This document shows, in pieces, positions 20,261 through 58,985 of a stretch of 64,000 nt of DNA. The notes beneath the pieces are model-generated. The model made no database searches. It saw only the letters and a program-made list of their open reading frames with translations, and was not told where the DNA came from. The stretch is taken from assembly GCF_027533845.1 (NCBI RefSeq), contig NZ_JAPZVN010000001.1, positions 124,001 to 188,000 on the forward strand. The letters run 5' to 3'. The translations under genes and the position numbers were made by a program. This stretch comes from Streptomyces sp. RPT161. Its GTDB lineage: Bacteria > Actinomycetota > Actinomycetes > Streptomycetales > Streptomycetaceae. The stretch's first letter is position 1, and the number at the start of each line of letters is the position of its first letter.

Positions 20261-20452
20261 GACTTTCCTCCTTCTCGGACGTACATCTCCGGTCCGGACT
20301 CGGGATCCGAACCTGGGATGGGAGAAGTGCTACGTCCTCGGGAAGGAGAGCGCCGTCATCGGCGGCCGTCGCGTGCAGGCGGACGGCGGGTCCGAAGTAC
20401 CGGCGATCACCCCCGAGCGACAACCACTGGCCACGCTCTCGCGCAACCTGCT

Positions 20453-20490
20453 GGACAGGCCCTGCCTATGAGGCAGGGACCCCCCTGTCC
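20453..20490. promoter_or_regulatory. Nested hairpin in the DUF6230 leader
   Basis: CCCTGCCT-ATG-AGGCAGGG (20460-20478) is a perfect stem-loop, enclosed by GGACAGG (20453-20459) and CCTGTCC (20484-20490). It lies about 200 bases before the DUF6230 start and could be an attenuator or stabilising leader structure. Confidence 0.4.
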
Positions 20491-20630
20491 TAGGGCGGCG
20501 GCGGTCACCGCACGCCCTGCTCGGTGGGGAATCCTTCACCCTCGCGCCGACCGGCTTGCCGGGCTTGGGGGAACGGACCGAGCGTGGGGCCGATCGTGGT
20601 CCATTCGGGGCCGGTACACAAGGCCTTTCA

Positions 20631-25589: not shown

Positions 25590-25886
25590 CTAGCCACCCG
25601 CCAGATGCCGCTCGACGGCCGCCACCTTGCCGGTGAGGGCGTCGGTCACGCCCGGCCGGATGTCGGCCTTGAGCACCAGGGAGACACGCGGTGCGCGGGC
25701 CTCCACGGCGGCGACGGCGCGCCTGACCACGTCCATCACCTCGTCCCACTCGCCCTCGACCGAGGTGAACATCGCGTCGGTGCGGTTCGGCAGCCCGGAC
25801 TCCCGGACCACCCGCACCGCGTCCGCGACGTACTCGCCGACGTCCTCACCGACGCCCAGCGGGGTGACGGAGAAGGCGACGATCAT
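25590..25886 (-). CDS. MTH1187 family thiamine-binding-like protein
   Basis: 98 residues forming one ferredoxin-like domain (DUF77, now described as thiamine-binding or MTH1187/YkoF-like). Visible are [11 protein letters not shown] at the start, [17 protein letters not shown] in the middle and [13 protein letters not shown] near 68-80. It may bind thiamine or its pyrimidine part in the cytosol. The ATG at 25886 overlaps the stop of the upstream DUF3817 gene by four bases, so the two are co-translated. Confidence 0.85.
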
Positions 25887-26230
25887 GCGTTGACCACGCC
25901 TTCCTTACGCGCCCTGGCGGCGATCACACCGGCCGCCTCCTCCTTCTTGATCATGCGGTCACCGAAGAAGCCGCCGGTCGGGAGGATGGAGAGCAGGAAG
26001 AACAGGCCGACCCTGCCGCGCGTCCACTTGGCCTTGCTCCACACATCGGCGAGGAGCACGAGGTAGAGGATGAACAGCACGCCGTGGATCATGCCCAGCG
26101 GCATCACCAGGTTGATGCTGGAAACCCGGCTGAGCACGGAGCCGAGGAGCAGCAGCGCGAGGAAGGAGATGGCCTCGGCGATCGAGATGATGCGCAGTCG
26201 GCGCAGGGCGGCGGCGGTCTTCACGTCCAC
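25883..26230 (-). CDS. DUF3817 small membrane protein, second copy
   Basis: 115 residues from GTG 26230, with three hydrophobic helices and the motif [25 protein letters not shown] prefer GTG 26230, which has GAGG about 10 bases upstream and begins near the first helix as relatives do, over an ATG at 26299 with no ribosome site. The longer start would also place a strong palindrome (26271-26290) inside the gene. It forms a two-gene unit with the MTH1187 gene. Function unknown. Confidence 0.75.
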
Positions 26231-26270
26231 GAGGTACCTCGTCTGGAAGCTGGGGCGTTGTCCGGTCGAT

Positions 26271-26290
26271 CTTGTGAAAGGTTGCACAAG
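26271..26290 (-). promoter_or_regulatory. Rex-like operator before the DUF3817-MTH1187 operon
   Basis: CTTGTGAAAGGTTGCACAAG. The central 18 bases (26272-26289) match 13 of 14 defined positions of the Rex operator TTGTGAA-N4-TTCACAA. It lies 41 bases upstream of the GTG start at 26230. Rex senses NADH/NAD and represses when NADH is low. The rex gene is not in this window. Confidence 0.5.
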
Positions 26291-26459
26291 CTCAGCCATT
26301 GTCGCAGTCCGGCACCAGAACTCCCGCAGGGGGTCGGCTCTCGGCGGCCCGGGGGACGCCCCCTCCCCGGAAGAAACGCTCCACCTCCGCCAGGGCCCCG
26401 TCGGGCAGGCCCTAGCATCGTGGCGTCAAGCGATCTACGGACCACGGGGGACGACCCGG

Positions 26460-55758: not shown

Positions 55759-56571
55759 TCAGTGACCGGCGATCGCGCCGCGGACGTAGTCCGAGGCGAG
55801 GACGACGAACACATAGGCCTGCAGAGCCTGGATGAACAGCTCGAAGAGGGTCAGTACGACGACCATCACGAAGGCGACGGCCGAGTACGCGATACCAATG
55901 CCGTTCAGCGTGTACCAGGCGCCGACCGTGAAGATCAGCAGGAGCAGGTGACCCGCGAACATGTTCGCGAAGAGTCGCACCGTGTGCGTGAAGGGCCGGA
56001 TGATCGTGTTGGAGAGGAACTCCAGCGGGAACACCAGGAAGGCGACGGCACCGAGGCCCTTCTGGTAACCGCAGAGGCTCTTGATCCCTCCCACGAAACC
56101 GTGGCGCTTGAAGGTCAGCGTCATCCACGTCAGGTAGACGATCGCCGCGAGACCGGCCGGGAAGGCGATGATCGACGTGACCGGGAACTGGGCGACCGGG
56201 ATGATCGCCCACAGGTTCATGATCCAGATGAAGAAGAAGAGCGAGACCATGAGGGGAACGAACTTCTCCCCCTCCTTGCGGCCCATCGTCTCGTGGACCA
56301 CACCACGCCGTACGAAGTCGTAACCGGCCTCGCCGATCATCTGGAGCTTGCCCGGCAGCAGCTTCGGCTTGGCGAACGCCGCCCAGAAGAAGCCGACCAC
56401 GATGATCGTGGTGAGCACGGCGAGCAGCATCGGCTTGTTGAAGTGGAAGCCGCCGACCGTGAACAGGGGCTTGAAGACGAAGGAGTTCAGGCCGGGAGAC
56501 GGGAAGCCGCAACCGCTGAAGATGTGGCAGTTGGTCTCGAAGGCGAGCATCTGGGGGTCAGCACTCACCAC
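55759..56571 (-). CDS. atpB: F1Fo ATP synthase subunit a
   Basis: Proton channel half of Fo. 270 residues with five to six membrane helices; the essential Arg lies in HTVRLFANMFAGHLL, near residue 197. The C-terminal helix ends AYVFVVLASDYVRGAIAGH. GTG 56571 has AAGGAG nine bases upstream; an adjacent GTG 56568 is equally possible. The 273-base gap before it (56572-56844) contains no gene and only a weak promoter-like TATGGT, so most transcription probably comes from upstream of atpI. Confidence 0.95.
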   Translation of the reverse strand: MVSADPQMLAFETNCHIFSGCGFPSPGLNSFVFKPLFTVGGFHFNKPMLLAVLTTIIVVGFFWAAFAKPKLLPGKLQMIGEAGYDFVRRGVVHETMGRKEGEKFVPLMVSLFFFIWIMNLWAIIPVAQFPVTSIIAFPAGLAAIVYLTWMTLTFKRHGFVGGIKSLCGYQKGLGAVAFLVFPLEFLSNTIIRPFTHTVRLFANMFAGHLLLLIFTVGAWYTLNGIGIAYSAVAFVMVVVLTLFELFIQALQAYVFVVLASDYVRGAIAGH

Positions 56572-56844
56572 GGGCTCCTTCGGCGGCTTGACGCATGGTT
56601 ACGGCAACCTCGGTGTGTCGGCGTGACGCGTGGCCACGGTGCGGCACTGGACTGGTCTCACTGATCAGGGGGTGGGACCGCAGCGGGCCAAGAGGACCGG
56701 CGGTCAGCGGCAGCGGGGGCTGTCGCACCGAGTGATGGCGCGACGCGGCCCGGATCCGCACGTCCGCGTGCTGGCACGGACCATAGCAGGACGTGAGGAA
56801 CACATAAGAACGGGGGATAGCCGTCCGGAAGCGGTTCGCCAAGA

Positions 56845-57255
56845 TCACGGCTTGCGCTCCGCTACGGGCTGTACGTAGAAGGTCTTCGCCTTCAGGTGGC
56901 CTCGGGTCTGCCCGATGAGCCAGACCACGGTCGCGGCGATCACGGTGAAGGCGAACGCCCGGGGGCTGAGGAAGCTGACGCGCTGGAAGACGGCGATCAG
57001 GATGGCCATGGCCAGCAGCTGGGTCATGTACATCACCAGCCCGGCGGCCATGAACATCTCGGGGAACTTCTCCGCCGCCTTGTTCAGGCCGATCACGGCC
57101 AGACCGAAGAACAGCCCGGCCACGGCGACTCCGATCACGGAGCCGATCGCACCTTTGCCTCCGGCGAGGACGGTGCTGAGAACCACCGCGACCACCCCCA
57201 CGGCGAACGTGGGAATCGCGGCGCTCCGCAGGATCCGGGCGTCGTTGGACTGCAT
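56845..57255 (-). CDS. atpI: AtpI-like membrane protein at the head of the atp operon
   Basis: 136 residues with four hydrophobic helices (about 14-32, 36-56, 70-92 and 98-116). The position ahead of atpB and the size match AtpI, a helper for c-ring assembly or magnesium supply in other bacteria; sequence similarity is weak, so the name rests mostly on position. The ATG at 57255 has GGAG upstream; longer frames run through the promoter and are rejected. A Rex-like site and a direct repeat lie upstream. Confidence 0.75.
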   Translation of the reverse strand: MQSNDARILRSAAIPTFAVGVVAVVLSTVLAGGKGAIGSVIGVAVAGLFFGLAVIGLNKAAEKFPEMFMAAGLVMYMTQLLAMAILIAVFQRVSFLSPRAFAFTVIAATVVWLIGQTRGHLKAKTFYVQPVAERKP

Positions 57256-57374
57256 GGGGGCGGCTCCGAAGTTGGAGTCGGGGGCGGGGATTGGGGCGAT
57301 CGTACAACCGGGCGGAAGGCATTCTTCCGGCCGGAAGACCATCTCGGTGGGGTCTTTCGGCCGTCGTCCCTGTT

Positions 57375-57392
57375 TCGTGAACCGTATCACAA
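57375..57392 (-). promoter_or_regulatory. Rex-like operator upstream of the atp operon
   Basis: Read on the minus strand it is TTGTGATACGGTTCACGA, matching 12 of 14 defined positions of the Rex operator TTGTGAA-N4-TTCACAA. TACGGT inside it could be the -10 of the atp promoter, with a start near 57373 and a leader of about 118 bases. Rex would then link ATP synthase level to NADH/NAD. Confidence 0.55.
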
Positions 57393-57437
57393 ACTATTTG
57401 ATGAGGTCTTTACCTACATCGTGTGCTCACAATCACA

Positions 57438-57472
57438 CCTACGGGTGACAGATGAGCGCCTACGGCTGACAG
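57438..57472. repeat. 14-base direct repeat with 21-base period upstream of the atp promoter
   Basis: CCTACGGGTGACAG (57438-57451) and CCTACGGCTGACAG (57459-57472) differ by one base and are exactly two DNA turns apart. They would lie about 65-100 bases before the inferred atp start, where an activator would bind. The protein is unknown. Confidence 0.5.
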
Positions 57473-57524: not shown

Positions 57525-58868
57525 TCAGCGCGCGCTGCTGACCCGGCGGCGATCCGGCAGCCGCGAACGGTCGCCGATCGCGGTCGAGCCGTGCAGTCCG
57601 GGCACGGGCTGCCCGGTCGCGGCCGGCTCGGCGAGCGCCAGCTCGGCCTCCGCCTCGGCGGCCAGAGCCGCCGCCTTCGCGGCCCGCGCCGCCTGCCGCC
57701 GGCTGCTGCGGTAGCGCGGCGGAACGAAGGACTCCGCCCAACGCGGGGCCCGCGGCTTGAACCGCGGCAGCAGCAGCACGACCAGGCCGACCGCGCTCAG
57801 CGCGACGACCACCAGCACGATCCACAGGCTGGACGAACGCGCCGAGAACGCCACCGTGCCGAACGCGATCAGCGCCGACCAGAAGTACATGATCAGCACC
57901 GCCCGGCTGTGCGAGTGCCCGATCTCCAGCAGCCGGTGGTGCAGATGCCCGCGGTCGGCGGCGAACGGCGACTGGCCGTTCCAGGTGCGCCGCACGATCG
58001 CCAGCACCAGGTCGGCGGCCGGGATGGCGATCAGCGTCAGCGGCAGCAGCAGCGGGATGTACACCGGCACCATCGCGTGCACCGCCTCGCGCACCGAACC
58101 CGCGTTGCTGGTGATCACGTCCGGGTCCACCTGGCCGGTGATCGAGATCGCGGAGGCGGCCATCACCAGTCCGATCAGCATGGAGCCCGAGTCCCCCATG
58201 AAGATCCGCGCCGGATGGATGTTGTGCGGCAGGAAGCCCATGCAGATGCCGATGAGGATGGCACTGAACAGGGTCGCCGGAGCGGCGTTCTCCACCCCGT
58301 ACCCGAACCACAGCCGGTAGGCGTACATGAAGAACGCGATCGCCGCGATGCCCACCATGCCCGCGGCCAAACCATCAAGCCCGTCAACGAAGTTGACGGC
58401 GTTGATGGTGATGACGACCAGCGCCACCGTCAGCAGCGTGGACTGCATCGGGCTGAGCGACACCGGGCCGATGCCGGGCACCGGCAGGTAGAGGATCGTC
58501 AGCCCCTGCATCACCATCACGCCCGCGGCGATCATCTGGCCGCCGAGCTTGATCAGCGCGTCCACGCCCCACTTGTCGTCCAGCACACCGAGCAGCCAGA
58601 TCAGCCCGGCGCCCGACAGCAGTGCGCGCGGCTCGTTGGAGAGGTTGAACACATCACCGAGATTGGGCAGCGACGACGCCACCAGCAGCCCCGCGCACAA
58701 CCCGCCGAACAGCGCGATGCCCCCGAGCCGCGGCGTCGGCTCCCGGTGCACGTCACGTGCCCGGATCTCCGGCATCGCGCCCGCGGCAATGGCGAACTTC
58801 CGCACCGGCCCGGTCAGCAGATACGTGACCGCCGCTGCGACGCAGAGTGTCAGGAGGTATTCGCGCAC
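57525..58868 (-). CDS. Undecaprenyl-phosphate N-acetylglucosamine 1-phosphate transferase (WecA/TagO-like)
   Basis: Transfers GlcNAc 1-phosphate from UDP-GlcNAc to undecaprenyl phosphate, the first step of wall teichoic acid or other lipid-linked polymers. 447 residues with about eleven membrane helices. LGVLDDKWG near 92-100, NAVNFVDGLDGLA near 153-165, FMGDSGS near 223-229 and the GHLHHRLL motif near 300 are the MraY/WecA catalytic and substrate motifs; the HLHHR form separates it from MraY. The last 75 residues are a polar Ala/Glu/Arg tail. I chose GTG 58868 with AAGGTG upstream. It may feed the TagF-like and GT2 enzymes at 10.9-17.7 kb. Confidence 0.9.
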   Translation of the reverse strand: MREYLLTLCVAAAVTYLLTGPVRKFAIAAGAMPEIRARDVHREPTPRLGGIALFGGLCAGLLVASSLPNLGDVFNLSNEPRALLSGAGLIWLLGVLDDKWGVDALIKLGGQMIAAGVMVMQGLTILYLPVPGIGPVSLSPMQSTLLTVALVVITINAVNFVDGLDGLAAGMVGIAAIAFFMYAYRLWFGYGVENAAPATLFSAILIGICMGFLPHNIHPARIFMGDSGSMLIGLVMAASAISITGQVDPDVITSNAGSVREAVHAMVPVYIPLLLPLTLIAIPAADLVLAIVRRTWNGQSPFAADRGHLHHRLLEIGHSHSRAVLIMYFWSALIAFGTVAFSARSSSLWIVLVVVALSAVGLVVLLLPRFKPRAPRWAESFVPPRYRSSRRQAARAAKAAALAAEAEAELALAEPAATGQPVPGLHGSTAIGDRSRLPDRRRVSSAR

Positions 58869-58985
58869 AGCGTCACACCTTATTCGCCTCCGAGCCGGGA
58901 GCGTGAACAAAGATGAGGACACACAGGAACCCCGAACGGTTCCACAGCGTCTTCACATTGATCACAGTGGTGATCGGCTGTCGCA

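Follow-up and report, generated by a model that had tools for sequence, protein, structure and literature searches.

The closest described counterpart of the promoter analyzed here is that of the ATP synthase operon of Streptomyces avermitilis (atpIBEFHAGDC, SAV2888-2880), whose Rex operator, TTGTGATACGGTTCACGA, is given in the main-text account of Rex in that species (PMC5355995). According to the same account, Rex-His6 binds this 18-mer in EMSA, ChIP and DNase I footprinting, atpI mRNA increases in a rex mutant, and NADH weakens the binding of Rex to DNA, as shown on the cydA1 promoter (PMC5355995). A second system is that of Corynebacterium glutamicum, in which GlxR activates atpBEFHAGDC (PMC7026483). 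It resembles the present case in the Crp-family control of an actinobacterial ATP synthase operon and in the motif GTG-N8-CAC; however, the regulator was demonstrated there, whereas here the likeness is drawn through the operon and the motif. The cis-regulatory leader RNAs of Rfam offer a third comparison. Like them, the leader described below stands upstream of a single operon and combines a branched fold with covariation, but it matches no family at gathering scores and has no known ligand, terminator or switch.

The 64-kb stretch of DNA that we analyzed (hereafter the window) contains the corresponding promoter of the atpIBEFHAGDC operon in a bacterium of the Streptomyces family. The promoter region, on the minus strand, is bounded by the atpI start codon (57255) and by a gene for a WecA-like glycosyl-phosphate transferase (57525..58922), and the rest of the F0F1 operon follows downstream of atpI and atpB. 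Read toward atpI, the order of the elements is ...CTGTCAGCCGTAGGCGCTCATCTGTCACCCGTAG, GTGTGATTGTGAGCACAC, GATGTA, GGTAAAGACCTCATCAAATAGT, TTGTGATACGGTTCACGA, AACAGGG..., in which the 18 letters of the Rex operator are identical to those of S. avermitilis. The coordinates of all features are collected in Table 1. For comparison, 159 atpI loci were used; these are loci and not independent species, and two of them can be one species counted twice. The genus of the window is represented by three genomes in the collection and forms a cluster separate from the large ones.

Table 1. Features of the atp promoter region and their coordinates in the window.
Feature	Position	Strand	Remarks
Rex operator (ROP), TTGTGATACGGTTCACGA	57375..57392	-	12/14 against the consensus TTGTGAAN4TTCACAA, two mismatches; upstream of atpI-atpB
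Probable extended -10 (TGA-TACGGT) inside ROP	57381..57389	-	inferred from invariant operator positions
Predicted atpI transcription start	57373..57374	-	7-8 nt below TACGGT, where the 5' strand of P1 begins
Near-invariant block, GGTAAAGACCTCATCAAATAGT (GGTAAAG..TCAAATAG)	57393..57414	-	-35/spacer region; 12 of 22 columns invariant in 88 loci
CRP/GlxR-type palindrome, GTGTGATTGTGAGCACAC	57421..57438	-	GTGTGA-N6-GCACAC; GTG-N8-CAC core at 57436..57423
Direct repeat, CTGTCAGCCGTAGG and CTGTCACCCGTAGG	57472..57459 and 57451..57438	-	13/14 identical, 21 bp apart
Structured 5' leader of atpI	57288..57378	-	folding, covariance model, covariation
P1	57374..57365 with 57314..57306	-	leader fold
P2	57362..57351 with 57340..57329	-	leader fold
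P3	57327..57324 with 57318..57315	-	leader fold
atpI, first gene of the operon	56845..57255	-	NCBIfam: Cg1360 family ATP-synthase-associated protein
atpB, F0F1 ATP synthase subunit a	55759..56571	-	downstream of atpI

The Rex operator stands above chance, since the whole 7.69-Mb genome holds 11 sites with at most two mismatches to the Rex consensus and a reversed control pattern returned none. The exact form TTGTGAN5TTCACGA occurs once in the genome, and the operator is kept at the orthologous promoter across the loci compared. The initial annotation had described a Rex-like operator matching at 12 of 14 positions upstream of the atp operon, and its letters and coordinates were confirmed. It had also proposed that Rex represses the operon at low NADH, which is supported and which had previously been shown for the identical S. 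avermitilis operator (PMC5355995). Because that operator is already proven, the Rex half of the present case carries a documented mechanism over to a further species, in another genus of the family. The Rex switch at atpI is thus already known, and what the sequence comparison adds is its conservation across most genera of the family. Rex binding and its release by NADH at the operator of the window are predicted from the identical S. avermitilis sequence.

The genome encodes one Rex protein, identified by a single match to PF06971, a score of 391 bits with the NCBIfam Rex equivalog and matches to PDB Rex structures. The promoter of rex itself carries a Rex operator, TTGTGCACGCGTTCACAA, and the genome-wide consensus search returned further operators at genes that, from reading their sequences, we take to be cydA (ATGTGAACGCGTTCACAA), wblE (ATGTGAACGCTTTCACGA) and nuoA. 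Another operator, TTGTGAAGGGGCTCACGA, closely precedes a reading frame that begins MSTTERPRILVV, presumably ndh judging from its sequence. The operators of rex, cydA and wblE are letter-for-letter identical to those in the S. avermitilis list, and ndh is a known Rex target in that species (PMC5355995). Within the window, TTGTGAAAGGTTGCACAA (26272-26289) is a Rex operator with one mismatch, nearer the consensus than the atpI operator; it falls at or slightly ahead of the 5' end of a small-membrane-protein gene on the minus strand (25883..26299) and also lies upstream of a plus-strand reading frame.

We consider it reasonably likely that the region is a composite promoter, conserved across most of the family, with Rex repression at low NADH and probable tuning of the Crp type. 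At low NADH/NAD+, Rex would occupy the 18-bp operator and sterically block RNA polymerase, because the operator would contain the extended -10 TGA-TACSGT, and NADH would release Rex and allow the promoter to open. The palindrome GTGTGA-N6-GCACAC would most likely be the binding site of the genome's own Crp/GlxR-type protein, in line with the action of GlxR at the Corynebacterium atp operon, and transcription would probably begin near position 57374, giving a transcript with a branched leader RNA. Rex binding and repression were shown elsewhere, and the present comparison shows the conservation, the rex and crp genes and the covariation of the leader; from these we infer the -10, the start site, the binding of Crp with its sign, and any function that the leader may have. 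If the proposed elements work in this way, antibiotic producers would adjust their ATP synthase levels to redox state and to a second messenger through a single promoter. The -10 within the operator would then account both for the exclusion of polymerase by Rex and for an operator that has never drifted to the Rex consensus. The operator is real, ordinary and already known, and it is the conserved composite promoter and leader around it that are worth testing.

To describe conservation by column, the loci were anchored on the operator and reduced to 88 non-redundant loci. The resulting profile was near-random at the direct repeat, rose at GTGTGA-N6-GCACAC, passed through variable bases to a near-invariant run, GGTAAAG-ACCTCATCAAATAGT-TTGTGATAC(C/G)GTTCACGA, and then decayed. 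The pattern GTAAAG-N7-CAAATA-N2-TTGTGATA-N2-GTTCAC occurs exactly once in 119 of the 121 genomes of the family, and in 15 of its 17 genera, whereas its reversed form gave no match. A shorter pattern gave no match in the 15 genomes that represent two further families of the order. Rex and the block showed no joint loss; Rex is present in genomes and genera that lack the block, indicating that the two are not tied to each other. An ECF-type -35/-10 reading of GGTAAAG..GTT was set aside, as a spacing of 15 would be too short for SigR/SigH promoters.

GTG-N8-CAC is present at the palindrome position in 158 of the 159 loci, compared to 0.5 expected from shuffling. The distance between palindrome and operator is nearly fixed, varying by 1-2 bp across the loci, and in the window the palindrome ends 28 bp upstream of the operator. 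The palindrome of the window matches the E. coli-type TGTGA-N6-TCACA at 9 of 10 positions. GTG-N8-CAC is the GlxR motif, and the S. coelicolor Crp motif is GTG-N6-GNCAC (PMC10033298). The window departs from the latter, with A in place of the inner G (GTGATTGTGAGCAC); the motif is matched in 49 of 158 loci, the sites often missing its G, while sites of other genera often fit it exactly (for example, GTGACAGGTGCCAC). The genome encodes a Crp orthologue (L192) that matches M. tuberculosis CRP structures over almost its whole length, has the same recognition helix as M. tuberculosis CRP (SRETVNKAL) and also matches the shorter Crp-type domain 2pqq. The second protein at the atp promoter would probably be Crp, acting at the palindrome.

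An unlikely alternative is that a regulator other than Crp occupies the palindrome and that the GGTAAAG..TCAAATAG block binds another protein, which would give the atp promoter an unknown activator. In favor of this, the block hardly varies and is confined to this promoter, with a single copy in each genome. The placement of the palindrome points the same way: its center and the predicted start are about 55 bp apart, the palindrome being upstream. Usual Crp activation distances are about 41, 61 or 71, which makes this distance unusual for Crp activation. Genome-wide, near-matches to GTGTGA/GCACAC show no clear enrichment (19 vs 14 in the control), and on this count a spread of the palindrome as a genome-wide Crp regulon was rejected. 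Against a regulator of another kind stand the GlxR motif itself (PMC10033298), the close Crp orthologue encoded in the genome and the control of the same operon by GlxR in Corynebacterium (PMC7026483). Genome-wide, GTGTGA-N6-GCACAC has just one other perfect copy (L123, 1501-1518), which neighbors a ferredoxin gene and a reading frame resembling an acetyltransferase. The Rex operator also holds a CRP-type sequence, TGTGA-N6-TCACG, matching at 9 of 10 positions, which makes competition between Rex and Crp at the operator possible.

In the composite promoter favored here, transcription would begin with a leader RNA. In Streptomyces, the sequences directly below the operator (CCCGGGACAGAGCCGAAGGACCGTAGTGCGACGGTCCATTGGCGTGAGG..CTCATCCCGGG) form a three-way junction in which P1 encloses P2 and P3, and the leader of the window has the same fold in different letters (AACaGGG/CCCgGTT; GGCCGAAAGACC/GGTCTTCCGGCC). 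Folding of 57374..57300 gave a z score of -2.1. A covariance model, R1, was built from 21 sequences; it scores the window, itself one of the 21, at 47.9 bits and recovers the leader from 83 of the 84 sources searched, which were preselected as likely positives and include the 21 model sequences. In the R1 alignment of 83 loci, 80.9% of cells pair. Two-sided changes were counted in 110 cells compared to 52 in shuffles, none of 500 shuffles reached the observed value and all slid versions scored lower, although these counts lean toward the structure because the alignment was fitted to the R1 model. In several other genera, single-sequence folds show a similar closing stem. No description of this leader was found in the literature searched, and Rfam gave no match to it at gathering scores, a laxer threshold returning two weak minus-strand matches far below them.

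The fold could also lack an RNA function and reflect GC-rich inverted repeats free of selection, an explanation that we regard as doubtful. It would fit the fold energies, which in 33 divergent leaders are only modestly better than those of shuffled sequences (mean z of -1.0), and it would fit two further results: RNAalifold on the leader alignments recovers only part of P2, and R1 gave no detection in seven of 10 genera tried, four of which are outside or distant. However, the excess of compensatory changes, even in an alignment fitted to the structure, argues for a maintained fold. Moderate independent support comes from the 33 divergent leaders, 22 of which have a P1 of 6 bp or more, compared to 12.4 expected. 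These observations suggest a branched leader RNA with covariation in part of the family, for which any regulatory role would be a further step. It is conceivable, but held only tentatively, that part of the family has a three-layer device composed of a Rex operator around an extended -10, a Crp-family site at a near-fixed distance and an undescribed leader at the 5' end of the transcript. Redox, cyclic-nucleotide-type and RNA-level signals would then converge on one operon.

The predicted start depends on a -10 element within the operator. Operator positions T6, A7 and G10 are invariant in the 88 non-redundant loci. The Rex consensus prefers A at position 6, where T is found here, and does not ask for A7 and G10. 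Together with T11, these letters spell TGA-TACSGT, of the form TGN-TANNNT, and the -10 element of S. avermitilis and S. lividans is TANNNT (PMC8780764, PMC6742748). TGA-TACSGT is therefore a probable extended -10, which would place the atpI start at about 57374-57373, in agreement with the start guessed in the initial annotation. That annotation had also placed the operator over a -10, TACGGT; the box is present (57386..57381) and its conservation favors this reading, but the published start lies further downstream. In S. avermitilis, the Rex footprint is reported at -50 to -22 of the atpI start, and the operator is placed at the -35, in an account whose main text takes up neither a -10 within the operator nor the palindrome or the leader (PMC5355995). 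The published start is about 20-30 nt downstream of the one predicted here, in conflict with the embedded -10; we suggest that it could be a reverse-transcription stop or a processed end. The main texts of transcriptome papers on S. coelicolor, S. avermitilis, S. lividans and S. griseus gave no start site for atpI. The best -35 candidate, AAGACC, is poor, and initiation thus probably needs help. Further down, the leader holds a second TANNNT-like box on the minus strand (57304-57299; TACGAT, or TACGCT in most Streptomyces), which persists even where the neighboring hairpin TCGTC/GACGA is lost and is possibly a second promoter or an RNA motif.

If the published start is taken at face value, about 36 bp below the operator center, the operator could be the sole functional element, acted on by Rex alone, and the conservation upstream of it would reflect promoter and spacer. 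This simpler account, which we judge quite improbable, draws on the footprint and start site given in the S. avermitilis main text (PMC5355995) and on the literature searched, in which no other regulator has shown binding at a Streptomyces atp operon. It would, however, set the start, in the alignment, close to the apical loop of P2, the covarying hairpin, and the positions 7-12 nt above it read GCCGAA, which has no TANNNT box, whereas TACSGT in the operator fits. An operator serving as the -35 for the published start was rejected for the same reason, as the 88 loci show no conserved TANNNT at the right place. The palindrome in nearly all loci, beside fast-evolving sequence, would also be left unexplained.

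The composite promoter as proposed here does not include the direct repeat. The initial annotation had noted a 14-base unit repeated with a 21-base period at 57438 and 57459 and had suggested activation by a second protein at this repeat. The letters are real, and the nearer unit lies 46 bp upstream of the Rex operator, but such pairs are common: at distances of up to 60 bp, the window holds 35 pairs of 14-mers that agree at 13 or more of 14 positions, many of them in repetitive coding DNA. At the repeat position of the 159 loci, 13/14 identity was found in the genome of the window only, with 10/14 as the best other value and at most 7/14 in most loci. When the repeat unit was sought upstream of atpI in related species, it proved to be lost even in two congeners, which retain partial repeats (CTGTCAGCCGGTCG/CTGTCACCCCTAGG in L003 and CTGTCAGCCGCATG/CTGTCGCCCATTGG in L004); this is the outcome that the initial annotation had itself named as counting against its proposal. 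An unknown activator binding one DNA face here is accordingly very improbable despite the intergenic position, the near-identity of the units and a spacing of two helical turns; the repeat was rejected as a conserved activator site and, on sequence grounds, is incidental. The conserved second site near the repeat is the CRP-type palindrome immediately downstream of it, and interest moves from the repeat to the near-invariant block, this palindrome and the leader.

Two further elements were observed in the window. The gap of about 270 bp between atpI and atpB (56572-56844) holds an extended -10-like sequence, TGCTATGGT (TATGGT, 56785..56780), which might serve atpB as an internal promoter. On the minus strand at 20401-20491, a full-length match to the Rfam che1 RNA (RF02935) was found with a score of 99 bits.
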